Origin: Celeribacter marinus
GTDB taxonomy: Bacteria; Pseudomonadota; Alphaproteobacteria; Rhodobacterales; Rhodobacteraceae
Direction: 5' to 3'
DNA: 64,000 bases
NCBI RefSeq assembly: GCF_001308265.1
Contig: NZ_CP012023.1
Location: forward strand, 1-64,000
Shown: positions 11,502 to 29,427 of the stretch, piece by piece
How the letters are laid out: each line of letters begins with the position of its first letter
Position numbering within the stretch: position 1 is the first letter of the stretch
Notes under the pieces: generated by a model
What the model was told of the DNA's origin: nothing
Database searches by the model: none
What the model saw: the letters and a program-made list of their open reading frames with translations, nothing else
Position numbers and translations under genes: made by a program

Positions 11502-11505
11502 GGGA

Positions 11506-13453: not shown

Positions 13454-14715
13454 TGGGTCATCCTTTTGGCTCGCCTAGGGCGATATGCGTGCGCTTCGAG
13501 CCGGGCCTCCCTTGCAGTTGTGGTGCTGTAAATCGAAATCGCTGCCAAAAGCGCTGCAATCGCCCACATGGTATTCACAAGATAGAGGCTGGAAGAGAAT
13601 TGCCCGGCGACGAAATGTTGCACATAGAGAGCTGAAAAAGCGGCATATTCACTATTTTTTGTGGCAAGAGTGAAGGCTCGGAACAGAACGCTCAGCAGGA
13701 AGCCGAGGAGGAAGGCGGTACCAATGAATCCCGTCGCCATGAGCGCTTCGAGGACAATGTTGTGCGGGTATATTCTGAAGGCCGGGTCCTCAAGGGTTGC
13801 ACCTAGAACCGGATGGTCGAGGAACATACGCCACGCGCTTGCGTATTGTGCGTTACGTCCGAGCGCGGACGGGTCCGTAAGCTGGATCGCAGCGTCGAGC
13901 CTGTCAAAGAGGTTGATGCCGAAGAACTTGTCCAGTGCCGTCAGATCGACGGAGAGCGATAGCAGGGGCACTAACAAAATTGTGGCTTTCCAGATAATCG
14001 CGCGGCCGCCTTTGGAAGCCTCGATGAAAAGGACCGATGCGAGTGCGGCGATGAAGGGACCACGCGACCCGGACATACCGATCCCGACCAATCCGAAACC
14101 GGCGGTAGCGAGATAAGCTAACGTTGTGACGAGCGAAACGCGGTCATGTCGCAGCTTCCAGTATGCGATCAGAAACACTGTTGCACCGACATGTCCAAGG
14201 GAAATCGGATTGAGTGACTCTAGGGAAAGGCGGCCTGTGTCAAAGCTGGCTCCGTTGGAGCTGATCATACTGGCCTGTCCGAAGACTAAGCCGAGCAACA
14301 GGGCCGCGACGGATGTCCATAGGGTCCAGCGCACCAGCCCTCGTGGCTTCGGAAGGCTGCGGGTGAGGAGCAAGGCGCTGGCCGGAAGGAAACTAGTCCC
14401 GACACCAAAAAGCCAATAGTCGAGCGCGGGCCGCCCCAGCTCGCCGGTTCCCAATATCGTGTCATACGCCATGCGGACGAGGTAAATGGTCCAGAAAAGA
14501 AAAAACAAAAGTATGGGCCAAGACGGTCGGAGCGCCGACGTTGAACCGGGGCGCAGCAACACCAGCACCGTGAGTAACAGCACCACCGCGCGCATGAGGA
14601 CCGACGCCATGCGATTGTCGAGCCCCAACACGGTGGTTATGCCGGCGGTTAATGGATAGCCGGAAACGCTCAAAACTAGGATTGCCGTGGTAAAGCCAGC
14701 GTAGGTCAAGCGCAT
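13450..14715 (-). CDS. Wzy/O-antigen-ligase-like polysaccharide polymerase
   Basis: An integral membrane protein of 421 residues with roughly ten to twelve hydrophobic segments. The first (AILVLSVSGYPLTAGI) is at the N-terminus. GMSGSRGPFIAAL lies near residue 215 before another helix, and a large hydrophilic loop (about 265-325) contains LDHPVLGATLEDPAFRIYPHN. The Arg-rich loops and the HN pair before a helix (YPHNIVLEALMATG) are typical of the Wzy/WaaL superfamily. The likely job is periplasmic polymerisation of repeat units flipped by the neighbouring Wzx-like protein. Ligase and polymerase cannot be separated from sequence alone; the EPS context favours polymerase. Confidence 0.8.
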   Translation of the reverse strand: MRLTYAGFTTAILVLSVSGYPLTAGITTVLGLDNRMASVLMRAVVLLLTVLVLLRPGSTSALRPSWPILLFFLFWTIYLVRMAYDTILGTGELGRPALDYWLFGVGTSFLPASALLLTRSLPKPRGLVRWTLWTSVAALLLGLVFGQASMISSNGASFDTGRLSLESLNPISLGHVGATVFLIAYWKLRHDRVSLVTTLAYLATAGFGLVGIGMSGSRGPFIAALASVLFIEASKGGRAIIWKATILLVPLLSLSVDLTALDKFFGINLFDRLDAAIQLTDPSALGRNAQYASAWRMFLDHPVLGATLEDPAFRIYPHNIVLEALMATGFIGTAFLLGFLLSVLFRAFTLATKNSEYAAFSALYVQHFVAGQFSSSLYLVNTMWAIAALLAAISIYSTTTAREARLEAHAYRPRRAKRMTH

Positions 14716-14884
14716 CGTCGTGGTGCCATACTTACGATTGGATGCTCACTCGGTCGCGTGATCCACGGCTTCGTTTGCACGCCAGAGAGAAATGGGGTTA
14801 GACGCTGGACACGAGCGGAGGGATTGGTCGGGCGCATTCCCCATGTTGGCTGGCCGAGTGCGAAGTTGATGAGTTCCATCTGTG

Positions 14885-16303
14885 TCACCAGTTCCCCATC
14901 ATCACCACCGCCCCCGCCGCCAGCGCGGCGATCGCCACGAAACCCGCCAATGCTGCCAGCGAGGTGATCGCTTGTTTCCCAGTTCCAAATGGTGTGAGCG
15001 TCAGCATTCGGGTCTCTCCAGCGAAGGCAACCATGTGCCCGGTTGCGATGGCGATGGCCACGGCGATGGCGACGTAAATGAATTCGTAGCTCCTGGTTGC
15101 GAGATAGACCAAAGCGGCGCCGAGCATGAGGAGCAACCATTGTCCGGCAATGCTCCAGCGCAGCGCTCCCGCAGCCCGAGCGAAAAGCTGGGTTGCCAGC
15201 CCGACGCTGGCGACTCCCCAGCCAAGCGAGAGCACGGCGACCGAAAAGAAGAATTCGGCAGAGACTTGCGACAAAAAGAACAGGCTGAACGCCGGCGTAG
15301 CTAGGATCAGCACGGTGTAGGCGATGGCTACGGTTCGAATGGCGCGGGCGCTGACCATGGCGTGATGGGCTCGGGCCGCCGCTTTGTCTGTGCTCCAGAG
15401 GCGGGCAAATTCCGGCAAAAACGGGTTCATGCCCGCTTGCAAGAGGGTCCGGACATTTCCCGCGAGCTTGTAGCTGAGGTCGTAAATCCCAAGAGCTTCG
15501 AGCCCGATCCAGCGGCCGAGAACTACCCGGGTGAGTGGATCAAACAGCGACATTGGGATTGACGATGCCTGTAACCTAAAGCCGTAATGAAGGGCTTGGC
15601 CTGCCGCCTTGCGCGAAAACCGCGACGGAACCAGCCGCAGCGAGGGCAGCCGCCGGGTGAGCACTACCCGGGAAGCAACAAGAAGCAGGGCATATTGGGC
15701 GATCTGGGCGTAGGCCAGGCCGAGAATTCCTTGCGAGGACACAAGAATCGCGGCGAGGAGGCCGTAGAGCACGAAACCGGCGATATTGAGCATCGAGCGA
15801 ATGTCTGCTCGCCCGAGCCCATCGATTGCGCTAAGTTGGGCCATCCCGGCCACATTGAGCGGCAGCGAAATCATTGCCCAGACCAGCAGTGCATGGGCAA
15901 TGATCTCGGTGCCGGGGGCGACCGACCCCGCCATGGCATAACGCAACGGCAAATAGGCGATCATCGACAGCACAGCGTAGAGCGCGACGATGAAGGCGGT
16001 GACCGTGTCGACATATTCGCTTCGGAGTCGCTCGTTGTCCGGGTTTAACGCCACCATCCGTGCCAACCCGCCAGCCCCGGTCAAGTCCATCACCCGAATG
16101 AACGCGACAAACCCCATGGTGAGCGACCAGAGCCCGACCCCTCCGAGCCCAGCAACCGCCAAGACATAGCGCATCACAAGGAAGTAAGTGCCGATTCCGA
16201 CAACGCTTTGCATCAGTGAAAGAAGTCGGTTGCGGGCCACACGCTGCTCGTCCGAGCGCGCAAGCTGGCGCAGCTTTTCGGTCAGGCGAATCATCTTAGT
16301 CAT
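14885..16303 (-). CDS. Wzx-like polysaccharide flippase
   Basis: A multi-spanning membrane protein of about 472 residues with some twelve to fourteen predicted helices, including a hydrophobic C-terminus (AALAGFVAIAALAAGAVV). It reads as a MOP-superfamily polysaccharide exporter that flips lipid-linked repeats across the inner membrane. Two stretches fit the family: FDPLTRVVLGRWIGLEALGI and GMNPFLPEFARLW. The start at ATG 16303 lies 1 base after the stop of the upstream glycosyltransferase. An upstream in-frame ATG at 16330 would overlap it. It is separated from the Wzy-like gene by 169 bases without a convincing gene. Confidence 0.85.
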   Translation of the reverse strand: MTKMIRLTEKLRQLARSDEQRVARNRLLSLMQSVVGIGTYFLVMRYVLAVAGLGGVGLWSLTMGFVAFIRVMDLTGAGGLARMVALNPDNERLRSEYVDTVTAFIVALYAVLSMIAYLPLRYAMAGSVAPGTEIIAHALLVWAMISLPLNVAGMAQLSAIDGLGRADIRSMLNIAGFVLYGLLAAILVSSQGILGLAYAQIAQYALLLVASRVVLTRRLPSLRLVPSRFSRKAAGQALHYGFRLQASSIPMSLFDPLTRVVLGRWIGLEALGIYDLSYKLAGNVRTLLQAGMNPFLPEFARLWSTDKAAARAHHAMVSARAIRTVAIAYTVLILATPAFSLFFLSQVSAEFFFSVAVLSLGWGVASVGLATQLFARAAGALRWSIAGQWLLLMLGAALVYLATRSYEFIYVAIAVAIAIATGHMVAFAGETRMLTLTPFGTGKQAITSLAALAGFVAIAALAAGAVVMMGNW

Positions 16304-16304
16304 G

Positions 16305-17123
16305 TCATACAAAGATGTCTTTTTCCGCATCGGGACGCTTGTATTTCGCCAGATCGAAACCCTGCGGCCAGAAAGCGTGACTCTGGCCTAGGTATTGGCC
16401 CCAAAGCGAAAACGTGGAGCGCGAACCGATCAGGACCTTGGCCTGCGACATCAGCAGGATCGACGTAAGGGCGTTCCCCTGGGGTTCCGGAACGAAGCCT
16501 TCCAGGCCGAGCTTCCCGATCACCGCCTCGGGAGCTTCATCTGAGAATAGGATGCCACGCTGAACGCCGCCGCCAAGCAGTTCCAGTGCTGCGCCAAGCG
16601 CCTCGCTATACCATTCAAGAGGCACTTGGGTGTTCTGCTGCGTTGCGGAAGCGTCCGGTGGGGCGAAATCGCCCAGCCGAACGTGAATGGCGATATCGTA
16701 CCTGTGGACCGGAACCGGCATGCGTGACGCATCCCAGAGAAACTGCCGCAAAAAGTCCGAGTCGGGCGACAGATCGTGAAATTGTCGCCCCATGCCTACG
16801 TAGCGAACTACCTGCGCGTGGAGGTCTGCATCAATTTCTAGTCGCTTGCGCCGCATTGTTGCGCTGAACCAGTCTGTAACTTCCGCCAGAGTTCGCGGCC
16901 TGAAGATCTCCCCATAGGTTCGCTTGTCTTTCTCGCGCCTGAGATAGGTTCCGATCTTGATCTGTCGCATGGTCGGGAAGACCATGATACCGCCAGTTTG
17001 CCTCTGCGCCTGCAATGCGCGCGCAATCGGAAACAATAGATTGCCCAAGCCTGGCCCTGGTCCGCGAAATAACCCACAGTCAGGACGGCTCAATTCCGGG
17101 AAATGGTATATGGTTGAAGTCAT
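16305..17123 (-). CDS. GT11-like glycosyltransferase, possible fucosyltransferase
   Basis: A 272-residue protein with features of the GT11 alpha-1,2-fucosyltransferase type. There is a Gly-rich N-terminal GPGPGLGNLLFPIARAL, the central IAIHVRLGDF (like HxRRGDY), and the late SRSTFSLWGQYLGQS (like SSFSWWGAWL) preceded by LLMSQAKVLIG. GT11 enzymes use GDP-fucose, which gmd and fcl of this locus would supply, so a fucosyl donor is a reasonable inference but untested. It heads the tightly spaced run down to the GT2 gene. The 375 bases upstream of it may hold a promoter. Confidence 0.7.
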   Translation of the reverse strand: MTSTIYHFPELSRPDCGLFRGPGPGLGNLLFPIARALQAQRQTGGIMVFPTMRQIKIGTYLRREKDKRTYGEIFRPRTLAEVTDWFSATMRRKRLEIDADLHAQVVRYVGMGRQFHDLSPDSDFLRQFLWDASRMPVPVHRYDIAIHVRLGDFAPPDASATQQNTQVPLEWYSEALGAALELLGGGVQRGILFSDEAPEAVIGKLGLEGFVPEPQGNALTSILLMSQAKVLIGSRSTFSLWGQYLGQSHAFWPQGFDLAKYKRPDAEKDIFV

Positions 17124-17498
17124 TCTTTCTCATCCTCATGAATGAGCCGCGAGCGTTGGGTTGGACAAACCACTCTCACTGTCCACGAACGCTGTAACCG
17201 CTGCTCATGGACGGGCATCTGTTACCGAATTATGAAAGCCCAAACTGCCGCCCACGCCCCCTACGTGGTGCTGAACGACAGCTCCGTGACGCGGGTGCCA
17301 AAATTCGAAGCCCGTCAAATAGGCTCCTGCCACTGCATGGCGCCCCTAAAGAACAGAATTAACGCCAAATTCAATGCCTTGGTAAGCAGAACGGACTTGC
17401 CGATCCTTTGGCGCTGGTGCCTGGGTTGGAGCACAACGTGCCGGTGTGTCGCATCCGATTTGAAAACGTGCCGAAGGTCGTGCCGATGAAAACAGGAG
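17124..17498. other. Intergenic region, no gene seen
   Basis: The 375 bases between the acyltransferase and the GT11-like gene hold no convincing coding frame. The short frames present lack ribosome-binding sites and family resemblance. The part near 17124-17200 is the natural place for a promoter of the minus-strand run that starts with the GT11-like gene, but I could not pick out boxes with confidence. Confidence 0.5.
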
Positions 17499-18629
17499 TT
17501 AATCAACTGGGCTCCTTTTTCCAGTATTCGGTAAATGCAAGACACCATACAACCAGTTGCGAACTATCTCGGTTCTAGCTTCGAATAGCTGGTAGGCCAA
17601 ATAACACGCGATCAAGAGGCTGAATAAAATCAACATAAATACGGAAAAAGAGCTCCAAGTAACAGCTGTGACACGTTGATGATTTGTAAAGTGTACAAAA
17701 AGGTGCAGAAGGGGATAGTGAAAAAGATAAGTCGAATACGAGAACCCGGCGAGCGGCATACCAAAGTTGTACAACTTCGCGAACACGCCGTATTGTGGGA
17801 CCGGCAACGAGGTAATGAAACCAAGAAGTAACGCGAATCCAAATGCAAAGATAATTAGGCCAATTTCAGCAGAGTTCTCACCCAACTGGACAACCTTAAG
17901 CGTTCCTTGTGTTCCAAGCTGCGACATCGCTAGGCCGGTTACCGTCAAAATAATGCCATAAATCGCGAAGGTAACTTTTCTCCGCGCGCAGTCGAGCCGA
18001 ACGGGGTAGATCAGCGCCCCGAATAACCAGGTAAAAATGTAGTATGCGTTGAGTTGCGCAAAGACGATTGCCGTTAGAGACACCACCACAAGTGCTCCTG
18101 TCCAGTTCTTTGCCACAACAAGTGGAAGCGTGACCGCGATCACATAGAACCATACCTCGTAGGTCAGGGACCAAAGCGGGCCATTGGATGGAGGAACCGA
18201 AAAAAATGTTCCCTGCAATGATATGAAGGACCCGAATGACGACGCTGCAACATCTGAATGGCCAAGCACAATACCTGCAGTCGCAGTGAGTACGATCGCC
18301 GGGAGTAGAGGTGTGTAAATCCTTGAGCTCCTGTCAGCAATATACCTCTTCATATTGAAAGTGCCGGCAAAAACCCGGTTAATCATACGCCCGCCTACGA
18401 GGTATCCGCTGAGTACAAAGAACGTGATTACAGCTTCATTACCGAGGCGTGTCGCGGAAAAAAACAAAAAGGTGAAAGCGGTTCTGCTCGCATCCTCCAA
18501 AGCCGACCACTCGGAAAAAAACTGTCCCCGCAAATGGGCAAGAAGCACCAAAAAAGCTGCGAGGAAGCGCATCCAGTCAAGCCATGGTATATGGTTGGTG
18601 GAGGAAGTTGGGGCGGTGTTGGTGCTCAT
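17499..18629 (-). CDS. Membrane acyltransferase (acyltransferase 3 family)
   Basis: A 376-residue inner-membrane O-acyltransferase of the OafA type with about ten helices. It begins with IPWLDWMRFLAAFLVLLAHLRG; the family normally has RxLA(x)xVxxxH here and the His is present. FFVLSGYLVGGRMINR follows, then YIADRSSRIYTPLLPA and GPLWSLTYEVWFYV, all conserved family segments. It probably acetylates an EPS sugar on the periplasmic side. Codon use is more AT-rich than in the neighbouring sugar-nucleotide genes, which hints at separate acquisition. A frame at 18626-18934 overlaps its start by 4 bases but is not convincing. Confidence 0.88.
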   Translation of the reverse strand: MSTNTAPTSSTNHIPWLDWMRFLAAFLVLLAHLRGQFFSEWSALEDASRTAFTFLFFSATRLGNEAVITFFVLSGYLVGGRMINRVFAGTFNMKRYIADRSSRIYTPLLPAIVLTATAGIVLGHSDVAASSFGSFISLQGTFFSVPPSNGPLWSLTYEVWFYVIAVTLPLVVAKNWTGALVVVSLTAIVFAQLNAYYIFTWLFGALIYPVRLDCARRKVTFAIYGIILTVTGLAMSQLGTQGTLKVVQLGENSAEIGLIIFAFGFALLLGFITSLPVPQYGVFAKLYNFGMPLAGFSYSTYLFHYPLLHLFVHFTNHQRVTAVTWSSFSVFMLILFSLLIACYLAYQLFEARTEIVRNWLYGVLHLPNTGKRSPVD

Positions 18630-19145: not shown

Positions 19146-19511
19146 TCAGCGCACTTTTGGCAGGGCTACACGATTGTCATCTATTTCTGCCTGTAGAGCA
19201 TCAATCTCTGCCTTGAGGGCCACGTATTCTTCCATCTTCCTAGCTAGAAACCGACGCGTGATGGCCGCCTTTTCCGAAATGCCCTTTGCTGTCAGGACAT
19301 ATGCATACCTGCGCTTGTCTTCTGCTGCGGTGAAGTTCCCCAATTTGACGAGGCCTTTGTCGATCAGCGCGCTCAACACGTAGTGGATCCCGCCTACGCT
19401 GACACCTACAGCCTCAGCCAAGTCTCGCTGTGACATTTCTGGGTTCTCTTGTAGAAGGCGAAGCACGCGAAAATGCGTGTCCTCCTGCAGCTTGGTGCGC
19501 TTGCTAGTCAT
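19146..19511 (-). CDS. MarR-type EPS-associated transcriptional regulator
   Basis: A 121-residue winged-helix protein of the EPS-associated MarR group. The DNA-binding part covers about residues 10-75: FRVLRLLQENPEMSQRDLA, VSVGGIHYVLSALIDKG and a wing with DKRRYAYVLT. A coiled-coil-like tail follows (ARKMEEYVALKAEIDALQAE). It is the first gene of the minus-strand EPS locus and probably controls it. The stretch just upstream holds a perfect 7-base inverted repeat (19597-19616) that could be its operator. In related loci such genes often sit beside an RfaH/NusG-like gene; here that gene is 4 kb away, with the recombinase operon in between. Confidence 0.88.
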   Translation of the reverse strand: MTSKRTKLQEDTHFRVLRLLQENPEMSQRDLAEAVGVSVGGIHYVLSALIDKGLVKLGNFTAAEDKRRYAYVLTAKGISEKAAITRRFLARKMEEYVALKAEIDALQAEIDDNRVALPKVR

Positions 19512-19616: not shown

Positions 19617-19951
19617 AGCGGATGCTGCGCGCGCAAACAAGAGGAAATCCAGAGATTCACGAGGTATTCGTCAAAAAAATCGCAGTTGTCGATCTGCGAG
19701 CTCAGACGCAAGCGAAGCCTTGCACCAGTGGGAGGCTGCGGCTGGAACTCATGCCCACTACCGCGTTCCAGCCGTTCAACAGAACAGGTTCATAAGTGAA
19801 CGACCCTTTCAGCACAAGGCCGCATAATGATCTTGGCTGGTCTTCGATCCCGCGCTGGGCATGGCGATAGCTCCTCGACACACGGGAATATGTCGCTTTG
19901 AAGTTAGTCACGGCATCAAAGATTTCGCAAGCTCATCCTGAGCCGAGCTCT
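19617..19951. other. Intergenic region between EPS regulator and RepB-like gene
   Basis: No convincing gene. A GTG-initiated 69-residue minus-strand frame (19702-19911) has no recognisable motif. Because the upstream operon ends at 19952 and may be mobile, one boundary of such an element would be expected here. No clear terminal repeat is visible. Confidence 0.4.
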
Positions 19952-21049
19952 TCATTCGAGTTGTCCGTCCATGCCTGGGGCCGACACTGCATCGTCGCCA
20001 TCCTGCGTCGGAGAGGCCTGCGCCGCTGACTCATTCCCGCCTGGCCCTTCCTCTCTCTCAGCCCGTTCCACGGCCTCCTCCATACTGACCGTATTCAGCA
20101 CCAGGTCGAACTGCTCGAGGATCTCGGACGCATGCCGTGCCACGTAGGACCGGACGGCCTCGTTCTCCATGAGCTTTTTCAGGTAGCCCTTGGCGACAAC
20201 CAGGTTCAGCAGCTCAGAGCCGTAGTTCTCCTCGGCATGTTTGTACTTTTCCTGCACCTGGCTCATCTCGCGCTCGAGCTTGACGATTTGTTCCAGCGGA
20301 TCGCCTTTAGGCTGTTCCGGCAGCGGCGGCTTGTAATCGGTGCGCTGTTCCGGCGGTGTTGCTTTCAGGAGGGCATCTGCATGGGCGGCGGTGATCGTAT
20401 TGGCAGCGATCATCAGTTCGACCGCTTCGACCTGCCGCGTGGCCTTCATCTTGCGCAGATGTCGGGTCACATCCGGCGTGAACTGATGATCCTGCAGCAG
20501 TTCTACTGCCTTGGGGCAGATGCCATGCAGAAGGTTAATCCGGCTGTTGATGGTCGAGAGATTCACATTGAACGCCCGTGCGAGGCGTTCCTTGCTGACG
20601 CCTTTGTCGATGGCGCGGCGCAGCATGTAATGCTCTTGCACCGTCGAAAGCCGGTTGATCCGGTGGTTGTAGGTGTAGGTCTCAAAATCCTTGGCGATGA
20701 GGCACGGCGCTGTGTCCTGGCCCAATTCTTTCAACGCCAGCACCCGCAAGTTGCCATCCAGCAGCAGAAACCCTGCCGCATCCGGGTCCGGCTTGATCAC
20801 CGATAGCGGTTCGATCAATCCGATTTCCCGGATCGAGGACACGATCTGCTTGAACTTGCGCGTGGTCATGACGCCGTCAGGCACCTTTTTCGAAGGCATC
20901 AGCTCTTCCAGTGGGATCTGGAAGGTTTCGAGATCAAACCCGAGGGTCAGGTTCAACGGGGCCTTGGGATAGGGCGCGTCGCTGTCGTCGGTGTCGGTCT
21001 GGGGAAAGGCCCCTGGGTAAAGTGGCTTCACGGTGCTGAGGTCATTCAT
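19952..21049 (-). CDS. ParB/RepB-like protein with RepB-type C-terminus
   Basis: A 365-residue protein, last gene of the recombinase operon. The N-terminal ParB/sulfiredoxin-like domain (about 40-120) includes TTRKFKQIVSSIREIGLIEPLSV and LLDGNLRVLALKELG, where classical ParB has GERRxxA. A helix-turn-helix follows (ISKERLARAFNV-like segment, about 150-170). The middle and C-terminal part (ICPKAVELLQDHQFTPDVTRHLRKM, then a coiled coil near 245-275) resembles the RepB partition C-terminal domain. No ParA/RepA gene lies nearby, so it is not an ordinary plasmid partition locus. Ribosome site AAGGAA precedes the ATG. Exact role unknown. Confidence 0.75.
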   Translation of the reverse strand: MNDLSTVKPLYPGAFPQTDTDDSDAPYPKAPLNLTLGFDLETFQIPLEELMPSKKVPDGVMTTRKFKQIVSSIREIGLIEPLSVIKPDPDAAGFLLLDGNLRVLALKELGQDTAPCLIAKDFETYTYNHRINRLSTVQEHYMLRRAIDKGVSKERLARAFNVNLSTINSRINLLHGICPKAVELLQDHQFTPDVTRHLRKMKATRQVEAVELMIAANTITAAHADALLKATPPEQRTDYKPPLPEQPKGDPLEQIVKLEREMSQVQEKYKHAEENYGSELLNLVVAKGYLKKLMENEAVRSYVARHASEILEQFDLVLNTVSMEEAVERAEREEGPGGNESAAQASPTQDGDDAVSAPGMDGQLE

Positions 21050-21069
21050 GGGATGTTCCTTTTCGGCTT

Positions 21070-21951
21070 TCAGGCGGTTTCAATGCGGTCGGCGAGGTAT
21101 TTCGGCAGGCTGTCGAGACCTTCGGCGCGCAGCAGCGTCACGAAATGCTCATCGGCAAAGAGGCGTTTCAACCCCTGGACCACCAAGAGCAGCTGCTGGT
21201 GCGCGTGATCGGCCTTCAGCATCAGTTTGTGCTGGCGTGCGACCTCGCGTTGGTAGGTCTTCACCAGCGAATGCGCCGAGTTCGGCAGCTTCGGGCGATC
21301 GCCACCGGTCTTTGGACCCTTTTCGCGGCGCTTTTCGATCAGCCGCTTGGCATCCGTGATCTGGTGACCCTTGAGCTGGCCGGTCTTGTAGGCCTCTTCC
21401 AACATGTCACCGAGGTTTTCATCGTCGTGCTTGGCGCGGGCGATCTCGAGGGCGGTGGTCAGCGGGATGGTTCCGTTTTGCACCGCTTCAATCAGGCGCT
21501 CTTCTCCCTTTTCCAGCAAGAACACGATGTCCCGGACGTATTTCTCGGAAAGCCCGGTGCGCGTGATGATGTCGTCGATTGTGTAATCCCGCGCGAGCAG
21601 GAGCTCGATGTCGGCCAGGATCTCCAGAGGCCTGTGGCCCCGCCGAGCGATGTTTTCGGCAAGCGACATGATGAAGGCGTCCTCATCGGTCACATTGACC
21701 ACCAGCGCCGGGATATGGCTTTCGCCAAGAAGGCGGAAGGCATTCAGTCGCCCTTCGCCGCAGACCAGCAAATAGGCGGGCGCCCCATCGGCGCCCTCGC
21801 GCTCTGTGACGGTGATCGGCTTTTTCAGGCCAATGGAGCGGATGTTTTCGACGATCTCCTCAAAGACCTTCATGTTCCGGTCCCTGGAATTCAGGACCTC
21901 GATCCGGTCTATGGGGACGAGCGTGACGCTCTCGGGTGTGTCAGTCATCAT
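21070..21951 (-). CDS. ParB-like nuclease-fold protein
   Basis: A 293-residue ParB-family protein. The N-terminal domain (about 10-100) shows VPIDRIEVLNSRDRN, EIVENIRSIGLKKPITV, then LVCGEGRLNAFRLLGE (the ParB GExR-like box) and SLAENIARRGHRPLE, which matches the ENxxR signature. The helix-turn-helix that follows is DDIITRTGLSEKYVRDIVFLL. The C-terminal part is basic. It lies 20 bases upstream of the RepB-like gene and 70 bases downstream of the serine recombinase. Two different ParB-fold proteins in one operon suggests they work together, perhaps as a heteromer, but this is inference. Confidence 0.8.
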   Translation of the reverse strand: MMTDTPESVTLVPIDRIEVLNSRDRNMKVFEEIVENIRSIGLKKPITVTEREGADGAPAYLLVCGEGRLNAFRLLGESHIPALVVNVTDEDAFIMSLAENIARRGHRPLEILADIELLLARDYTIDDIITRTGLSEKYVRDIVFLLEKGEERLIEAVQNGTIPLTTALEIARAKHDDENLGDMLEEAYKTGQLKGHQITDAKRLIEKRREKGPKTGGDRPKLPNSAHSLVKTYQREVARQHKLMLKADHAHQQLLLVVQGLKRLFADEHFVTLLRAEGLDSLPKYLADRIETA

Positions 21952-22021
21952 GGGATTGGCTTCCTCTTCTGGTGTAATTGTTCATGTTTTGTACTGCCGC
22001 CAATTTGCATCGTTCCGACCC

Positions 22022-23572
22022 TCATCCCCATTTGCGGCGAATGCCGACCCGCTCGGCCATGCCGTAGAAGAAGCCGAGGTCCTCGAACCGGAAAGCCTCG
22101 AAGGCGATGCTGGTGCGGTTGCAAAGCCGGATTTCTTGCCGGGGCAGGTCGAGCCAAGGCAGGAGGTAGTAATCGAGCTCGTCACGGTTCTCGGGATCGA
22201 GCCGCACCGCCAGCGTGACGTCGGCCTGGTAGCGCATTGGATCAAACCGGATGCGCCAGCGCAGCCGTCCATCGCCCTGCGGCTGGCAACGCGCGAGGAC
22301 GAGGCTGACGACCATCTCATCGTTGATGGTCAGTAGGTCGGTCTTGGGATCACGTGCTACCGTGCCGCCCACCTCGGCAATCGCCGCCTCGGTCCGCGCA
22401 ATGATTTCCGGGTGCATCCCACGCAGGCGCTTGTTGAGCGCGATCCGCTCTTGGTCCCGGTCCGAGCGATAGCCAATCATCTCATAGGCCCGAGCGAGCG
22501 ACCCGAACCGGTTCCGATAGGCCGAGGAGGACGGCATGTCCGGCGTCTGGTCGATCAGCACCCCGGAAAGCTGGCCCGCGTCGGCGTAGAGCCGTTTCAG
22601 GTGATCCAGCAGCTCTTCGTCTGACAGGCGGGCAGATCGCGCGGTGATGATCTCCTGCGCGGTCAGGAAAAACTCCAGCGGCACAATCCCCTCAAAGGCG
22701 CCTTCCTTGCGCACCCACATGTCGGGCGGGTTTTCCACATGCAGTTTCTTCAGCTTGAAGGAGGAGCGGTTGTAGACGTTGTTGCCGATGTATTTCTCGT
22801 TGGTCAGAACCGTGCGCACTGTGCCGGAATTCCATGGCCGGTCCAGATCGGTGGTCACGCCTTCTTCGTTCAGGCGGTCAGCGATCTCGCGGAAGGACAG
22901 ATCCTCCTCGATCAGCCAGCGATACATCTTGTTGACCCAGGCCACTTCTTCGTCGGGCCCTGGCATCAGAATGACACGGTCCGTCTGCAGCGATTTGTGC
23001 TCACCCCGTTTCAGCTCGCCCTTGATCTCGCCGCGCTCGTTCACAAGAACCCGGCGCAAGCCAAACCCGGCCGCGCCGCCCTGGCGAAACCCCAGCTCGA
23101 TCAGGCGGCATTGGCCCGCGAAGACCTTGACCGAAAGCTCGCGGCTGTATTCCCCGGCCATGGCGCGTTTGACGCCCTTGACGATTGTCGAGACGGGCGA
23201 GCCATCATTCTCGAACTGCTCGGCGCAATAGGCGACGTTGATGCCAGCACGCTTGCAGATGTATTCGTAATAGGCGCTCTCGTCCGCGTCCTGGAAGCGG
23301 CCCCAGCGGCTGACGTCATAGACCAAGATCACGTTGAAGTCGGCGGCCCCGGATTCCACATCCGCAATCAGCTGCTGCAGGGCGGCGCGCCCGCCGATGG
23401 AAAGGCCGCTTTTGCCGTCATCGGCGTAGGTCTTGATGATCTCGATGCCACGCTTGTCGGCATATTCGCGGATCTTGTCGGACTGGTTGTGCGTCGAATA
23501 CTGCTGGTGCTCCGTCGACATGCGCACATATTGCGCCGCCCGAAACTCGGTAATCTCGCCACTCCCGTCCAA
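22022..23572 (-). CDS. Large serine recombinase with atypical C-terminus
   Basis: A 516-residue large serine recombinase. The resolvase catalytic domain (about 12-155) has the nucleophile motif YVRMS (Ser19), DDGKSGLSIGGRAALQQL, and VYDVSRWGR, where Arg residues fit the active site. The recombinase domain (about 165-290) includes GEYSRELSVKVFAG and ISFREIADRLNEEG-like sequence. The region from 300 to 400, where most large serine recombinases carry a four-Cys zinc ribbon, has no Cys. The C-terminal 130 residues form a different conserved-looking domain (RWRIRFDP, LAVRLDPENRDELDYYLLPW). The start is TTG 23572 with GGAGG just ahead, as no ATG precedes it in frame. First gene of the three-gene operon. 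Confidence 0.85.
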   Translation of the reverse strand: MDGSGEITEFRAAQYVRMSTEHQQYSTHNQSDKIREYADKRGIEIIKTYADDGKSGLSIGGRAALQQLIADVESGAADFNVILVYDVSRWGRFQDADESAYYEYICKRAGINVAYCAEQFENDGSPVSTIVKGVKRAMAGEYSRELSVKVFAGQCRLIELGFRQGGAAGFGLRRVLVNERGEIKGELKRGEHKSLQTDRVILMPGPDEEVAWVNKMYRWLIEEDLSFREIADRLNEEGVTTDLDRPWNSGTVRTVLTNEKYIGNNVYNRSSFKLKKLHVENPPDMWVRKEGAFEGIVPLEFFLTAQEIITARSARLSDEELLDHLKRLYADAGQLSGVLIDQTPDMPSSSAYRNRFGSLARAYEMIGYRSDRDQERIALNKRLRGMHPEIIARTEAAIAEVGGTVARDPKTDLLTINDEMVVSLVLARCQPQGDGRLRWRIRFDPMRYQADVTLAVRLDPENRDELDYYLLPWLDLPRQEIRLCNRTSIAFEAFRFEDLGFFYGMAERVGIRRKWG

Positions 23573-23789
23573 CTCAGCCTCCGAACCACGTTTCTGTCGG
23601 TCGGACGTTTGCGTGGGTGGGAAAAGGTATCAAGCTGATAGTGCTGGATTATCCCATTATATCAATACTCTGAGCGATACTCGCTCCGCCATCTTCATCA
23701 AAATGTCACGTTGCTTCCGGAAAAGCGCACTTGCATCTGTTCAAGTTCGAGCGATATGTGGGGCGAGAGGGTTTTAATGAGGGTGCAAA
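23573..23789. promoter_or_regulatory. Divergent promoter region of recombinase operon and RfaH-like gene
   Basis: The 217 bases between the divergent recombinase and RfaH-like genes must hold both promoters. A perfect 6-base inverted repeat, GAGCGA and TCGCTC around TAC, lies at 23672-23686. A further GAGCGATA is at 23749. Both match the half-site upstream of the MarR-type regulator. AT-rich stretches (ATTATATCAATA near 23657) are candidates for a promoter core. Confidence 0.4.
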
Positions 23790-24302
23790 ATGACATTTCA
23801 CGATCGCGGAACAAGTTGGTTTCTGGCGCAGCTGAAGCCAAACTGCGCCAACATCGCAGACAAGAACCTCAAGCGCCAGGGCTTCCAGACATTCCTGCCT
23901 ATGGAAGAGGAGACGCGCCAGCGGAACGGCAAGTTCGTAACTGCCATGCGGCCACTGTTCCCTGGTTACATCTTCGTGGCGTTCGATGCGGCCCGCGGGT
24001 TTTGGCGCACTGTGAACTCGACCTATGGCATCACCCGGCTGGTGAGCTTCGGCAAAGAGCCGACGGCCGTGCCGCTGGATCTGGTCTCGCAGCTGATGCT
24101 GCGCTGTGATGCGAAGGGCAAGTTGCTGCCGCCAAAGCTCCTGAAACCCGGGGATCAGGTGACGCTAACCAAGGGACCGTTTGCCAATTTTGTGGCAGAG
24201 GTGGAGAAGATCGCTCCGGATCGGCGCGTCTGGGTCCTGATGGAGCTCATGGGCGGACAGACCCGCGTTGCCGTCGGGGCCGACCAACTTCGGTCCATTT
24301 GA
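23790..24302 (+). CDS. RfaH/NusG-like transcription antiterminator
   Basis: A 170-residue NusG paralogue. The NGN domain (about 8-105) begins WFLAQLKPNCANIADKNL and contains GFQTFLPMEEE, RPLFPGYIFVAFD and STYGITRLVSFG. The KOW domain follows (LKPGDQVTLTKGPFANFVAEVE, about 118-140). Such specialised NusG proteins (RfaH type) bind RNA polymerase at the start of long polysaccharide operons and prevent early termination. Immediate placement before galE and near the EPS cluster supports this role. I did not find a convincing ops-like recruitment element in the window. Confidence 0.88.
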   Translation: MTFHDRGTSWFLAQLKPNCANIADKNLKRQGFQTFLPMEEETRQRNGKFVTAMRPLFPGYIFVAFDAARGFWRTVNSTYGITRLVSFGKEPTAVPLDLVSQLMLRCDAKGKLLPPKLLKPGDQVTLTKGPFANFVAEVEKIAPDRRVWVLMELMGGQTRVAVGADQLRSI

Positions 24303-24344: not shown

Positions 24345-25328
24345 ATGAAACATGTGTTGGTCACGGGCGGCGCGGGCTATATCGGCTCTCATGCCTGCAA
24401 ACTGCTGGCGCGGCAGGGCTATATCCCTGTGACTTTCGACAGCCTGGTCACAGGCTGGGCCAGTGCCGTGAAGTTTGGCCCTTTCGTACAGGGTGATCTG
24501 TTGCATCGTGACGCGCTGGATGCGGTGTTTGCCAAATACGAGCCCGTCGCGGTGATGCATTTTGCTGCTCTGAGCCAAGTGGGCGAGGCGACACGCGAGC
24601 CAGGGCGTTACTGGCGCAATAACGTGCTGGGGTCTCTCAACCTGGTCGAGGCTATGGTGGCGGCGGGCTGCAAGCACATGGTGTTTTCTTCGACCTGCGC
24701 CACCTATGGTGACCAAGACGGCGTCGTGCTTGATGAACAGAGCGCCCAGATGCCGCTCAATGCGTACGGCGCCTCAAAACGCGCCGTCGAAGAGATCTTG
24801 CGCGACTTCGGCGCGAGTCACGGCATTGAGGCGGTGGTGTTTCGGTATTTCAACGTAGCGGGCGCCGACGTTGAAGCGGAAGTCGGCGAGTGGCACCAGC
24901 CAGAAACCCACCTAATCCCGGTGATGATCGAGGCCGCTGCCGGCAAACGGGACGCCCTGACCATCTATGGCACGGATTATCCGACGCCCGACGGCACCTG
25001 CGTGCGTGACTATGTCCATGTGATGGATCTGGTCGATGCCCACATCAAGGGTCTCGAATGGCTGCTTGGTGGCAAAGGCAGCCGGGTGTTTAACTTAGGA
25101 ACAGGCACCGGCTTCTCGGTCAAAGAGGTGATTGCCGAATGTAAAGCAGCGACAGGCCATGACGTCCCACACAGCTTTGGCCCGCGCCGAGCGGGGGATG
25201 CGGCGGCGCTGGTTTCCGGCAGCCGGCGCGCGGCCGAAGAATTGGGCTGGGCGCCGGAGCGCTCGACGCTGCAGCACATGATTGCCGATGCCTGGCGCTG
25301 GTATCAAACCGGCGGTTATTCTGGGTAG
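24345..25328 (+). CDS. galE: UDP-glucose 4-epimerase
   Basis: Interconverts UDP-glucose and UDP-galactose with bound NAD. The protein has 327 residues, as usual. The Rossmann motif is TGGAGYIGSHACK, followed by FDSLVTGW and VMHFAALSQVGEA. The catalytic set is SSTCATYG with YGASK (YxxxK). Further family segments are FRYFNVAGAD, HLIPVMIEAA, DYVHVMDL and FNLGTGTGFSV. It lies 42 bases after the RfaH-like gene and is probably co-transcribed. It supplies galactose for the EPS. Confidence 0.95.
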   Translation: MKHVLVTGGAGYIGSHACKLLARQGYIPVTFDSLVTGWASAVKFGPFVQGDLLHRDALDAVFAKYEPVAVMHFAALSQVGEATREPGRYWRNNVLGSLNLVEAMVAAGCKHMVFSSTCATYGDQDGVVLDEQSAQMPLNAYGASKRAVEEILRDFGASHGIEAVVFRYFNVAGADVEAEVGEWHQPETHLIPVMIEAAAGKRDALTIYGTDYPTPDGTCVRDYVHVMDLVDAHIKGLEWLLGGKGSRVFNLGTGTGFSVKEVIAECKAATGHDVPHSFGPRRAGDAAALVSGSRRAAEELGWAPERSTLQHMIADAWRWYQTGGYSG

Positions 25329-25408
25329 CCCAGGTTTCCGGCATAACTCAACAAAACCACCAATCCTGCATTTTCAAAAAAAGACGACGTTCAGAAAGTC
25401 TACCGAAT

Positions 25409-26233
25409 ATGAAACCCGTTCGCAAAGCTGTATTTCCCGTAGCCGGTTTCGGCACCCGTTTCTTGCCGGCCACCAAGGCCATGCCGAAAGAGCTGCTGCC
25501 GATCGTCGACAAGCCGCTGATCCAATATGCGGCAGAAGAAGCCATCGCGGCGGGGATCGACACGCTGATCTTCGTGACCGGGCGCAACAAGCGGGCCATT
25601 GAGGATCACTTCGACAGCAACCAAGAGCTTGAGGCCGCGTTGAGGGCCAAAGGCAAGATCGAACAGGCTGACATGGTGCACAGTATCCTGCCACAGGGCG
25701 TCGAATGCATCTTCGTGCGCCAACCGGAACAGTTGGGCCTCGGTCATGCGGTCCTCTGCGCAGAACGCGCCGTGGGCGACGAACCATTCGCCGTTCTGCT
25801 TGCAGACGACTTCCTAACCTACGAGGGGGCGGGCGTGACCGCCGATCTCGTCAAGAGCTATCAAGCCTTAGGCCGGACGCAGCTGTCGGTCATGGAGGTC
25901 AACGGACCCGACATCTCGAAATACGGTGTGGTGGAGCCCGGCGCCGCCGCTGGCAGCGTTGCGGGCCTGGTCGAGAAGCCCGCCTTCGAGCAGGCGCCGT
26001 CAAGCTTGGCTTCAATCGGTCGTTATGTCCTGACGCCTGACATCTTCGAGATTCTGCGTGGCCAAGCGCCCGGCGCGGGCGGCGAAATTCAACTCGCGGA
26101 TGCCATTAACACCCAAGCCGCCGCTGGTCAGGTGGAAGCCGTCACACTGAATGGCCAGAGGTTCGACTGCGGGTCCGTGAAAGGGTTTCTGCAGGCCATC
26201 ATGCATGTGGCACAGCGGGATGGGTTGGTTTGA
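25409..26233 (+). CDS. galU: UTP-glucose-1-phosphate uridylyltransferase
   Basis: Makes UDP-glucose from UTP and glucose-1-phosphate, the feed for GalE and Ugd. The protein has 274 residues, slightly short for GalU (about 290-300) but complete at both ends. The nucleotide-binding start is AVFPVAGFGTRFLPATKAM followed by PKELLPIVDKP. FVRQPEQLGLGHAVLCA, FAVLLADDFL and GRYVLTPDIFEIL are conserved, and FDCGSVKGFLQA sits at the end. It lies 80 bases after galE on the same strand and ends 3 bases from the convergent YdcF-like gene. Confidence 0.94.
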   Translation: MKPVRKAVFPVAGFGTRFLPATKAMPKELLPIVDKPLIQYAAEEAIAAGIDTLIFVTGRNKRAIEDHFDSNQELEAALRAKGKIEQADMVHSILPQGVECIFVRQPEQLGLGHAVLCAERAVGDEPFAVLLADDFLTYEGAGVTADLVKSYQALGRTQLSVMEVNGPDISKYGVVEPGAAAGSVAGLVEKPAFEQAPSSLASIGRYVLTPDIFEILRGQAPGAGGEIQLADAINTQAAAGQVEAVTLNGQRFDCGSVKGFLQAIMHVAQRDGLV

Positions 26234-26236
26234 AAG

Positions 26237-27019
26237 TCAACGACCTAACAGCCGATAGGCCAATCGACCGACCCATTCCTTGATGGCAATGTTCAGAATC
26301 TCGAGATTGCCAGAAAGGTTCCAGCCTATCCCGTCACTGAAACTGCCCGTGCGATAGTCAACGGGGTGAGGGATTATGTCGTCCCACCCCGCCGCCTCAA
26401 AACTCGCAAGCGCGCGGCCCATGTGAAACGCGCTGGTGACAAGGACCCAGGTTTCGCCAGATGCGGGCGTCGCGACCTCGTAAGAAAACCGTGCGTTTTC
26501 TGCTGTGTTGCGCGATTGATCTTCCCATGTGATCCGACCGGGGTCGATGCCCAGAGACACGAAAAAGTCCACCGCAACGCTTGGGATCTCTGGCTGGCCC
26601 AGCACGGTGTTGCGCAGGCGGCCACTGCCACCAGAAAACACCAAGCGCGCCTCCGGGTGCGCAATGGCGAGCGCCGCCGCCGCTGTCAGACGCTCGGCGG
26701 CTTCATTCAGCTGCGGCTCGCCCCAAACCGCGGTCGCCTTTTGGTCTTCAACGCCGCCCAGCACGACAATGCCGTCGATGTGTGCGGGCGCTGCACGAGG
26801 CAGAAACTCCGCCTCCAGCGGGCGCAGCAAAATCTCGCCAATAGGGAAGATGCCAACAGCTAAGAGCGCGGCCAGCGTTGTACCACCACTCCAACGCGCC
26901 AAACGCGGGCACGCAAAACGTCCAGCGATCAGGCTCACGACCATGCCAATCACAAGCCAGGTCTCGATCTGCAGGGCCAGCCCGATAAGCTTGGAAAGGA
27001 TGAAGAAGGCCGTGTCCAT
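26237..27019 (-). CDS. YdcF/ElyC-like DUF218 protein
   Basis: A 260-residue inner-membrane protein with two N-terminal hydrophobic segments (about 5-30 and 45-65) and a DUF218 domain. The domain is marked by IDGIVVLGGV, VFSGGSGRL, the signature WEDQSRNTAENARFS and LVTSAFHMGRA. DUF218 proteins such as ElyC and SanA act in envelope polysaccharide metabolism, though the chemistry is unclear. It follows the GT2 gene by 11 bases on the minus strand, so they likely form an operon within this EPS neighbourhood. Confidence 0.82.
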   Translation of the reverse strand: MDTAFFILSKLIGLALQIETWLVIGMVVSLIAGRFACPRLARWSGGTTLAALLAVGIFPIGEILLRPLEAEFLPRAAPAHIDGIVVLGGVEDQKATAVWGEPQLNEAAERLTAAAALAIAHPEARLVFSGGSGRLRNTVLGQPEIPSVAVDFFVSLGIDPGRITWEDQSRNTAENARFSYEVATPASGETWVLVTSAFHMGRALASFEAAGWDDIIPHPVDYRTGSFSDGIGWNLSGNLEILNIAIKEWVGRLAYRLLGR

Positions 27020-27030
27020 CGCGACGCAGA

Positions 27031-27789
27031 TCAGCTGCGCTGCGGGCGCACCAGAAACTGGCCGACCTTCGAGAGGTTCTTCAACGCCAGCGTGTGAAGG
27101 CCGCCCACGCGGTTGCGCCGGATCGCCAGCATGTCTTCTTCCATCTTCTGGCGGATCTTTGGCCAGTTGCGATTACTGACACCGCCAACCCGCATTTTAT
27201 AGAGCACCTCGGGGATATAAACCGACTTGCCTGTCGCCTGCGAAAAGTAACGCAGGATGAAATCGTAATCGGCTGCGATGCGCATGCTCTTGTCATAGCT
27301 CCCGAACCGCTCGTAGACCTCGCGACGCAGGTACAGTGTGGGGTGGGCTGGCATCCAGCCGTACTTCAGGCGCCGCGGGTGGAAGGCCCCAGTAGACCAG
27401 TGCCGAATGACCCGCGAGGTGTCGGCCTGCGAGACATAGACCAGATCGCTGAACACCGCCTCGACCGCAGGATCTTCAAATGCTGAGGCAATTCGGGCCA
27501 GCACCCCGTCATTGGCAAGAAAGTCGTCGCTGTGGATGAAGCCGACCACGTCACCAGTGGCGTTGCGAACGCCCTTGTTCAGGGCGTCGTAGATCCCGTC
27601 GTCTGGCTCGCTGATCAGCCGCATCCGGTCGTGACCTGCGCGCTCGATGGCCTCGAGCGTGCCGTCGTCTGACTTGCCTTCAACAACAAGGTGTTCGACA
27701 TCCGGGTATGTTTGTGCAGCGACGCTGGCAATGGCCTCGCCGACGGTCGCTTCAGAATTGTAAGCAGCAGTAATGACAGAGATTTTCAA
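27031..27789 (-). CDS. Family 2 glycosyltransferase (WcaA-like)
   Basis: A 252-residue GT-A glycosyltransferase. It has the usual start ISVITAAYNSEATVGEAI, then VVEGKSDDGT, the donor-region SEPDDGIYDALNKG and the metal DxD-type FIHSDDFL. Later GWMPAHPTLYLRREVY and AADYDFILRY are typical of the WcaA/WbbD-type group seen in colanic-acid loci. It transfers one sugar to the lipid-linked repeat; donor unknown. A segment corresponding to 27381-27434 has a diverged partial copy at 28857-28910, evidence that a related second gene once existed nearby. Confidence 0.87.
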   Translation of the reverse strand: MKISVITAAYNSEATVGEAIASVAAQTYPDVEHLVVEGKSDDGTLEAIERAGHDRMRLISEPDDGIYDALNKGVRNATGDVVGFIHSDDFLANDGVLARIASAFEDPAVEAVFSDLVYVSQADTSRVIRHWSTGAFHPRRLKYGWMPAHPTLYLRREVYERFGSYDKSMRIAADYDFILRYFSQATGKSVYIPEVLYKMRVGGVSNRNWPKIRQKMEEDMLAIRRNRVGGLHTLALKNLSKVGQFLVRPQRS

Positions 27790-27950
27790 CGGCGAGGTCT
27801 CAACAATAGAATGATTACCACGTCTCTACATCAAACCGTACTCGGGCGAAATGCGAAGATGCAGTCGCAGCAAGGAAAATTCTTGGGGTTTGGCGTGCAA
27901 AGTGCCTCAGAAAACGCTATGCGAGGCATCGAGAGGATGGAGACGCACCC

Positions 27951-28391
27951 ATGTCCGAGATAGCCCCGCCGAGGAACCTAACGCCCGGCCTATGCAAAAC
28001 GATCGAGGCCGAAATGCTTAAGGCCTGTACAGAAGTTGCCGCAAAGCACGGTCTGGTGGCTGAAGGGCTGGGGATGCAGGCCATGGACCTGCGCTGGAAC
28101 TTCGAGTTCGGCGTGCGCGTCTCTATCCCGCTGCCGGATGGATCAACCCTCGACCCAGAACGGATGTTGTTCGAGACTTTGGCAGAAGAGTTTGGCCTGT
28201 CGCCCGGTGACTTCGGTCGGGAATTTTCCACAGGGCGGGAGAGGTTTCGCGTTGCAGGCATCGACCCGCGCCGGCCCAAGTATCCCATCTCGGCAACGCG
28301 CATCCCGGACGGGAAGGGCTACAAGTTCACCGCCGAGAACGTGGCACTGCTCCTGAAGGCGGCGAGGAAGGACGTGTCGCCGAAGAGATAA
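27951..28391 (+). CDS. Hypothetical protein
   Basis: A 146-residue protein with ATG at 27951 (MSEIAPPRNL). It has no signal peptide or membrane segment. The sequence is an even mix of helix-forming and loop segments, with the patches LTPGLCKTIEAEMLKAC and FRVAGIDPRRPKYPI and a basic tail. I do not recognise the family. Coding potential is supported by length, by regular codon use and by its being the longest frame here. It lies between EPS genes and a decayed region, so it may belong to either. Confidence 0.5.
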   Translation: MSEIAPPRNLTPGLCKTIEAEMLKACTEVAAKHGLVAEGLGMQAMDLRWNFEFGVRVSIPLPDGSTLDPERMLFETLAEEFGLSPGDFGREFSTGRERFRVAGIDPRRPKYPISATRIPDGKGYKFTAENVALLLKAARKDVSPKR

Positions 28392-28463
28392 CGCGGTGAG
28401 AAACTGCTATTCGGGCCGTGTCGGGTCGGGTCGTGGTATGACGTCAATGTCGGAGGACACGTT

Positions 28464-28625
28464 ATGAATAAAGAAAAAAAGCTAGAAATTCAAAAAGCAC
28501 TGCAAGCCTACACCAAGAAAACCACGAAATCCTCTTCCAAGGCGAAGAAGGCATTGGTTGATGAGGGCATATACCTGAAGGATGGTAAGCTTGCACCTGA
28601 GTACAAGGAACCCGCAGCAGCTTAA
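28464..28625 (+). CDS. Small basic protein, antitoxin-like partner
   Basis: A 53-residue protein with strong ribosome site CGGAGG at 28451-28456. It is Lys-rich (NKEKKLEIQKALQAYTKK), followed by KKALVDEGIYLKDGKLAPEY. From memory, such short proteins precede a gene whose product contains YDWLGxGIYFWE, in a conserved two-gene pair of unknown function that looks like a toxin-antitoxin layout. Here the stop overlaps the next start as TAATG, which fits translational coupling. The partner gene is broken, so this gene may be an orphan. Confidence 0.55.
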   Translation: MNKEKKLEIQKALQAYTKKTTKSSSKAKKALVDEGIYLKDGKLAPEYKEPAAA

Positions 28626-28860
28626 TGGCTCGGCTTCAGACGTCATTCGTATTGGGCATCATGGTTGCACGCTGAGGTCGGAGAGGCGATACTGAGCGGC
28701 GCTCCCATGGATGGCAGTGACCGAGAATATGACTGGCTTGGTCTCGGCGTGTATTTCTGGGAATCTGACCCAGTGAGGGCTTGGGAATGGGCTTGCTGGA
28801 AGGTTCAAAGAGGCGATTTTACTGACCCATTTGTCGTCGGCGCAGCGATAGACTTAGGAA
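28625..28860 (+). pseudogene. Broken YDWLG/YFWE-family gene (toxin-like)
   Basis: The ATG at 28625 gives MARLQTSFVLG and then runs to an early TGA. A second frame from about 28665 continues EVGEAILSG, YDWLGLGVYFWESDP, AWEWACWK and PFVVGAAIDLG. The HGC codons between them lie in a third frame, so one missing base on each side of about 28658-28670 would restore a continuous protein. The family-like motif is YHGC, then YDWLGxGxYFWE, reminiscent of ADP-ribosyltransferase-type folds but without proof. Homology stops at about 28860, where a glycosyltransferase-derived segment begins, so the C-terminus is lost as well. Confidence 0.55.
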
Positions 28861-28920
28861 GGCCCCAACAGACCAGTGCCGAATGACACGCAACGTGTCA
28901 ACCTGGGCGAAACGCGAAGT
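28857..28920 (-). pseudogene. Fragment of a second WcaA-like glycosyltransferase gene
   Basis: On the minus strand this stretch reads FAQVDTLRVIRHWSVGAF, matching SQADTSRVIRHWSTGAF of the intact GT2 gene at 27031-27789. At DNA level about 45 of 54 bases agree between 28857-28910 and 27381-27434, including near identity over 31 bases. It is therefore a relic of a diverged paralogue, not a chance match. It abuts the truncated toxin-like gene, marking a recombination or deletion junction. Confidence 0.65.
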
Positions 28921-29060
28921 TATCGCTTGGTATTTGTTGTGTGAACTTGAAGACGATATTCGGCATGCAGCCGATCTGCCTCAGCTTGAACAGCCGCTCG
29001 GCGTTCCGGCTTGAGCGCGTCCAGCTGATCTTTCAGGGTTCGTGGTGTGGATGTCCGCAT
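28920..29060 (-). pseudogene. N-terminal fragment of an XRE-type antitoxin gene
   Basis: A 46-residue frame starting ATG 29060, reading TLKDQLDALKPERRAAVQAE and ending shortly after HAEYRLQV. This helical N-terminus precedes the DNA-binding domain in many HigA-like antitoxins, but here the helix-turn-helix is missing and a stop follows. It starts 10 bases beyond the stop of the intact XRE gene. Likely a truncated remnant. Confidence 0.4.
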
Positions 29061-29070
29061 GTTGGGCACG

Positions 29071-29427
29071 TCACTGGTCCTGGGCATCAAACAGGTCGTC
29101 CATGTCAACCTTCAGCGCGGTGGCCAGCTTCTTCAGGGTGGCGGCAGAACCGGTTTTACGCCCCGCTTCGATGTCGATGATCTGGATGCGGTTGACACCT
29201 GACTGGCACGCCAGTTCAGCTTGAGACAACCCGCGGTGTTCGCGCCAAACGGTCAGGGGCGCATCACCGGCCAGTAAGCGATCGACGACAGGGGAGGGGA
29301 TCAGCTCCTCGGTTCCAGCTTTGATCCGGGCCAAGACGTCGGCTGCACTATTCAGATCAGCCATATCCTCTTCAATCGCCTTGAGGCGGAGGTATTCGTC
29401 TTTGGGGATGGTCAACATTTCATTCAT
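29071..29427 (-). CDS. XRE-family antitoxin-like regulator
   Basis: A 118-residue protein. The N-terminal half (IPKDEYLRLKAIEEDMADL, then ADVLARIKAGTEELIPSPVV) is typical of antitoxins paired with RelE-type toxins. The C-terminal half is an XRE helix-turn-helix: VWREHRGLSQAELACQSGVNR, followed by IDIEAGRKTGSAATLKKLA. The start at ATG 29427 is supported by AAGGAG upstream; the frame is open to 29523 without support. No intact toxin gene adjoins it. It sits between a VapC-like remnant and an antitoxin fragment, so it is probably a survivor of a decayed module. Confidence 0.75.
   Translation of the reverse strand: MNEMLTIPKDEYLRLKAIEEDMADLNSAADVLARIKAGTEELIPSPVVDRLLAGDAPLTVWREHRGLSQAELACQSGVNRIQIIDIEAGRKTGSAATLKKLATALKVDMDDLFDAQDQ

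Follow-up and report, generated by a model that had tools for sequence, protein, structure and literature searches.

A serine recombinase with two ParB-fold partners as a candidate recombination module of exopolysaccharide islands in Celeribacter marinus

Introduction

Several described systems resemble parts of the locus analyzed here, a three-gene block (the trio) within the first 64,000 nucleotides of the Celeribacter marinus contig NZ_CP012023.1 (this whole stretch is referred to as the window), which codes for a large serine recombinase (REC) and two different ParB-fold proteins (PB1 and PB2). Large serine integrases and recombinases, such as the phiC31, TndX/TnpX and CcrAB types, share with REC the Resolvase and Recombinase domains and a catalytic serine, and a relative of the trio on pAt plasmids is, like them, bounded by putative attachment (att) sites. 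In contrast to these systems, the trio includes two ParB-fold operon partners and a weak HNH_repeat region and has no known directionality factor. The cytidine triphosphate (CTP) clamps ParB, Noc and KorB and the RepB of repABC plasmids have in common with it the fold, the nucleotide boxes of PB1 and the RepB domain, but the trio lacks a ParA or RepA, contains two unlike ParBs and has a recombinase in its operon.

The genetic surroundings also have known counterparts. tRNA-Ser is among the insertion sites of Rhodobacteraceae prophages, one of which carries rfbABCD (PMC8224337), and the tRNA-bound islands and prophages of this family resemble the trio-bearing islands described below in their tRNA-Ser ends and in the sugar genes near phage genes; no report was found, however, of a constant block in which a whole exopolysaccharide (EPS) cluster is joined by MarR_EPS, RfaH and the trio. 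EPS loci regulated by RfaH and MarR_EPS pair these two genes, which are adjacent in trio-free loci, as the window does, but here the trio sits between the regulators, and in one of the two subclades described below (beta) RfaH has an N-terminal extension, in some cases with HTH_17. The parts are known, whereas the association of a serine recombinase with a pair of unlike ParB clamps, both bounded by att sites and partnered with RfaH/MarR_EPS, and the REC-PB1-PB2 trio itself were not found described in the open-access literature, in agreement with the initial annotation, which gave no functional description. We propose, giving this idea about even weight, that the trio is a recombination module of EPS islands and represents the EPS branch of a family of mobile elements that consist of a helix-turn-helix (HTH) gene, REC, PB1 and PB2.

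The trio and its proteins

The three genes follow one another on the minus strand with intergenic gaps of 70 and 20 bp:

22022-23572, minus strand: REC, large serine recombinase (516 amino acids, TTG start), assigned from Pfam matches and motif conservation
21070-21951, minus strand: PB1, ParB-fold protein (293 amino acids), assigned from Pfam matches, residue conservation, and profile and structure searches
19952-21049, minus strand: PB2, RepB-type ParB-fold protein (365 amino acids), assigned from Pfam matches, residue conservation and a structure search

All three open reading frames were confirmed, and the initial annotation as a recombinase and two different ParB-fold proteins in one unit therefore stands. 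The host genome (3.10 Mb, one contig) has a single copy of the trio.

REC matches PF00239 (E-value 1.8e-22), PF07508 (6.4e-22) and, weakly, HNH_repeat, and thus has both the Resolvase catalytic domain with its active serine and the PF07508 domain of a large serine recombinase. Its catalytic motif is YxRMST, with Ser19 counted from the annotated start. Since the catalytic serine and the RWGR motif are retained in nearly all of ~75 relatives, REC looks like a catalytically competent recombinase. The best named serine-recombinase models match it weakly (CcrB, 56.6 bits against a cut-off of 900).

PB1 matches ParB_N (2.5e-9) and RepB PF07506 (4.7e-10). The ParB nucleotide boxes GEGRLNA (residues 65-71) and ENIARR (99-104) are intact, and their core residues are retained in the relatives sampled; PB1 is probably a CTP-gated ParB clamp. 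PB2 matches RepB (1.9e-33), with ParB_N under the gathering score (3.1e-5), and has a long helix at its C-terminus. Its boxes are altered (LDGNLR and NRLSTVQ), the family having DG[NH]LR and NRxxxxQ in place of the canonical ones together with its own set of invariant residues, while the fold is still ParB-like. AlphaFold models of the two proteins, with mean pLDDT values of 68 and 71 (moderate confidence), match Noc, ParB and KorB in structure searches (best E-values 1e-10 and 5e-9), so that both have the ParB fold; profile searches of the ParB partners reach the same three proteins. The only similarity between PB1 and PB2 is a short local stretch (37.5% over 56 amino acids), and both stay below the cut-offs of the RepB (201.5) and Noc (315) models.

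No ParA/RepA or replication gene adjoins the trio in the window, as the initial annotation had noted, and no ParA was found in the unit or next to it in the annotated loci examined; the trio lacks the ParA/RepA partner of a partition system. There was no invariant run of at least 15 nucleotides inside the trio genes that could represent a hidden DNA site, and no sigma-70-like promoter in the block. PADLOC returned weak domain-level matches only, and a role as a defence system was rejected.

A plasmid relative with att-like ends

The order REC-PB1-PB2 was found again in more than 80 loci on plasmids, chromosomes and a few viral contigs and is therefore not due to chance; the earlier statement that the trio is present in other proteobacteria was borne out. 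In most plasmid members, a small divergent HTH-type gene belonging to one sequence family lies immediately upstream of REC. No match to this gene was found upstream of REC in the EPS-type loci defined below.

The plasmids pAtC58 (L033:5940-9843) and pAt1D1460 (L311:4940-8843) share a unit of exactly 3,904 bp that comprises HTH-REC-PB1-PB2, is 96.9% identical and lies between unrelated flanks. Related imperfect repeats of ~21 bp close both ends (left CGCCTTGAAGGGAGTTGAACC, right CACCTTGAGCGGAATCGAACC), and element-free plasmids have one similar site at the same junctions, namely CGCCTTGAACGGAATTGAACC or GCCCTGAGCGGAATCGAACC past an AbiEii gene and CGCCTTGATGAAAGTCGAACC ahead of a Fic gene. We read the end repeats as the att sites of a site-specific element. 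The repeat-bounded unit and the single site in element-free plasmids indicate that HTH-REC-PB1-PB2 is a compact site-specific mobile element. Fixed att sequences, for which the initial annotation had proposed to look, were thus found for the plasmid relatives. The empty target of the C58 element was not found as a single continuous match; its two flanks were seen separately, each accompanied by an att-like site. Up to four trio copies are present in S. meliloti replicons, mostly unannotated and partial, as would be expected from the activity of a mobile element.

The C58-type att-like site also occurs at the edges of AbiEii and Fic blocks in element-free plasmids (L312-L315 and the L033 junctions), where it looks as if gene blocks were swapped. 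A tRNA T-arm-like att was considered as a family-wide rule and dismissed, being present in the C58-type element only; this particular att sequence is not shared by all members of the family.

Linkage to EPS regulators

In the window, the trio is flanked by two regulators:

19146-19511, minus strand: MarR_EPS regulator (TIGR04176, 146.9 bits against a cut-off of 88), constant neighbour on the PB2 side
23790-24302, plus strand: RfaH-like antiterminator, constant neighbour on the REC side and divergent from REC

The RfaH-like protein scores 118.7 bits with the RfaH model, under the cut-off of 144.5. In a survey of 248 Rhodobacteraceae genomes, PB1 match scores fell into two clean groups: all 8 high-scoring resolvable PB1 loci lay within ~3 kb of a strong MarR_EPS match, as opposed to none of the 25 low-scoring ones. 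Across collections, 53 EPS-type loci (L087-L139, PB1 identity at least 63%) were compared with 34 other trios (L032-L039 and the 26 loci L140-L159 and L161-L166). RfaH-like and/or MarR_EPS genes were found at the expected places in 48 of the 53 EPS-type loci and in none of the 34 others; three of the five remaining loci are short contigs, and L129 and L133 are real exceptions. Chance co-location of the trio with EPS genes is ruled out by these counts. In the REC tree, EPS-alpha (20) and EPS-beta (17) each form one clade, with every non-EPS REC on the other side. By these sequence comparisons, the window trio is a member of an EPS-bound clade with alpha and beta subclades that is tied to RfaH/MarR_EPS.

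In alpha loci RfaH is divergent from REC, whereas beta loci have a longer RfaH, extended at its N-terminus, that lies ahead of REC in the same orientation, and MarR_EPS is placed after PB2. Of four extensions tested, one exceeded the gathering score of HTH_17 and another came near it; RfaH proteins bearing this N-terminal helix-turn-helix are found at the beta loci L079:5287-6279 and L084:5338-6267. In the beta loci L112, L120-L123, L125 and L127, a second RfaH-like start occurs right after PB2, and the trio seems to be flanked by RfaH on both sides. Insertions between REC and RfaH were seen in L089 (~1.4 kb) and L105 (~290 bp). L088 and L090 have identical match statistics yet are filed as Thalassobacter stenotrophicus and Nereida ignava, perhaps through a record mix-up.

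Selection, trio-free loci and the REC-proximal motif

Codon differences between the window and Shimia haliotis amount to 72 synonymous and 0 nonsynonymous in PB1 and 142 and 7 in REC. REC and PB1 are, on these counts, under very strong purifying selection; MarR_EPS is less constrained. Comparison of occupied and trio-free sites, as suggested initially, defined two further features:

19760-23628, unstranded: segment absent from the trio-free locus L208
23604-23634, minus strand: REC-proximal motif CTTGATA-N13-ACGCAAACGTC (short form CTTGATA..GCAAACGTC), candidate att end or operator

In the trio-free loci L208 and L215, MarR_EPS and RfaH are divergent and lie 826 and 530 bp apart. Homology between L208 and the window ends at 19759 and restarts at 23629-23695. 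The trio had originally been thought to be an insertion between the two EPS regulators, and the divergent pair in these loci agrees with this, but a lone insertion is at odds with a clade whose members keep RfaH/MarR_EPS beside them in both alpha and beta. L208 and L215 nest among trio-bearing loci in the weakly resolved RfaH tree, and loss of the trio is therefore as likely as a pre-insertion state.

The REC-proximal motif at the right junction is conserved in alpha EPS-type loci and has a variant form in betas, with unrelated DNA beyond. Att-like repeats at both ends and a single site when empty were seen for pAtC58/pAt1D1460; the EPS branch has one conserved candidate end. We take the motif to be either an operator or an end of the element, past or current, and the data fit both readings.

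The conservation of this divergent intergenic motif, the fixed position between two EPS regulators, the loss of the HTH gene and the extreme constraint on PB1 would also be expected if the trio had been domesticated for the control of EPS expression, with the ParB-type proteins acting at the RfaH/REC divergent region and REC being structural or flipping a local switch (phase variation). We consider this unlikely, as there are no convincing inverted repeats around the window locus, a genome search for a second copy of the motif gave none with fewer than three mismatches (three-mismatch matches being noise), and REC retains its catalytic residues.

A selfish trio that inserted once in an EPS island lineage and has since travelled along, conserved through its own mobility, is quite unlikely. 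Non-EPS trios appear to be mobile and are likewise under purifying selection (e.g., REC with 76 synonymous and 8 nonsynonymous differences), so that constraint alone is no proof of an EPS role, and both broken copies and trio-free relatives exist. However, the EPS clade keeps RfaH/MarR_EPS across alpha and beta, a bond that non-EPS trios do not have, and no EPS-type copies were found outside an EPS setting, save possibly L129 and L133.

Islands and adjoining prophages

The wider setting of the trio in the window includes:

1752-18629, minus strand: EPS biosynthesis genes on the MarR side, read as open reading frames and matching EPS genes of beta loci
24345-31813, unstranded: galE, galU and genes for glycosyltransferase and PF00953 proteins, standing between RfaH and the island end
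31985-32047, plus strand: island-end element, conserved over ~60 bp and ending in a core like the tRNA-Ser 3' end, GAGGGTTCG..TTCCGCCA
44000-45774, minus strand: serine integrase and DUF2924, which belong not to the trio but to a separate prophage nearby

The distal island-end element, of ~60 bp, lies outside RfaH in ~10 alpha loci and is followed by sequence resembling the native tRNA terminator. In genome G136, an intact tRNA-Ser (2036405-2036494) has a direct partial copy at 2107125, just outside RfaH, and the interval comprises prophage genes that include a serine integrase, as well as EPS genes, MarR_EPS, the trio and RfaH. Both kinds of tRNA-Ser end occur 29 kb apart in G204. The host genome has the distal copy of the tRNA-Ser 3' end at 32015-32047; no tRNA-Ser was found at the left end of its island within the sequence fetched. 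No exact repeats above noise were detected at both ends of the beta island G291 or of G300. As judged from these ends, the trio block is carried inside larger chromosomal islands, often beside a prophage, and the initial view that the trio has no cargo did not hold.

RfaH has tail and lysis genes immediately upstream in 11 of ~16 beta loci with enough sequence; in betas, the lysis genes, RfaH, the trio, MarR_EPS and the EPS genes share one direction. In alpha loci, late phage genes point to the EPS end in 7 of 14, with two more partial, and no prophage was detected in about 5 of 14. None of the 10 control MarR_EPS loci without the trio had late phage genes, but part of the prophage panel had been chosen from trio loci and some control stretches were shorter, so that this contrast is suggestive and not a measurement. 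Although late modules abut the block and the beta genes are co-directional from lysis to EPS, it is very unlikely that the trio is the integrase module of these prophages and the EPS cluster their cargo, because the trio is not their sole integrase: the adjoining prophages have their own at the far end (G291, G292, G300 and the host genome), they differ in type while the trio clade is one, and they went undetected in the alpha loci just mentioned.

The host genome has two prophages near the block. One extends from 43291-64000 of the window to ~71.5 kb and codes for a serine integrase, DUF2924, a CI-type repressor, a primase, a terminase and a methyltransferase with a ParB-like N-terminus; its tail module stops short of an apparent flagellar gene cluster. 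The second runs from 3062010-3096705 of the host genome into positions 1-1670 of the window, has a DUF4102-like tyrosine integrase (read by eye), and its late genes finish against the EPS cluster. In G296:C67, two inverted EPS-type trios (13642-15162 and 144969-146486) are separated by 130 kb, and phage genes lie at the inner end of each; in L086:8001-8507 phage tail genes in the opposite direction cut PB1 after ~120 residues. The window also contains an IS91-type transposase adjoining a phage-type tyrosine integrase (41114-43205) and a 54-bp direct repeat (27381-27434 and 28857-28910, 83% identical), one copy of which is within a glycosyltransferase gene.

Discussion

We infer how the ParB proteins may be used, what the EPS branch may act on and what the trio may be for. 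The initial annotation had suggested that a ParB-type clamp pair may control target choice, synapsis or direction. REC would cut and join short att-type sites, beside which PB1, the probable CTP-gated clamp, and PB2, a diverged RepB-type clamp, would load and assist synapsis or set direction as accessory factors. The EPS branch lacks the HTH gene, and its trio has a fixed place between MarR_EPS and RfaH within an integrated island that carries the EPS cluster and often adjoins a prophage. The trio most likely serves there for the transfer or exchange of the EPS cassette or island, with its EPS regulators in control.

Several observations weigh against this proposal. No distal att of the EPS-type trio was found, only the REC-side candidate end being conserved, and this motif may be an operator. 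Neither an excised form, nor an empty island site, nor active recombination was seen. The tRNA-Ser ends could serve tyrosine integrases instead of REC; in G136 a DUF4102-like tyrosine integrase (family read by eye) adjoins the tRNA-Ser copy. Finally, the alpha copies L103, L106, L107, L110 and L138 are broken and trio-free EPS loci exist, so that the trio is dispensable.

The most specific form of the proposal, put forward tentatively and rather doubtful as a whole, is that a serine recombinase, gated in its synapsis or direction by two dissimilar ParB-type clamps of which one is CTP-dependent, serves as a dedicated system of mobility and exchange for EPS clusters that are carried with prophages and tRNA islands in both alpha- and betaproteobacteria, and that it is coupled to the RfaH and MarR_EPS of its own cluster. 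If true, it would link CTP-gated ParB clamps with serine site-specific recombination, two mechanisms regarded as separate, and would supply att sites open to testing as well as a small three-gene system suited to recombination assays. It would also offer a concrete route by which whole surface-polysaccharide clusters may travel and swap between genera with prophages.

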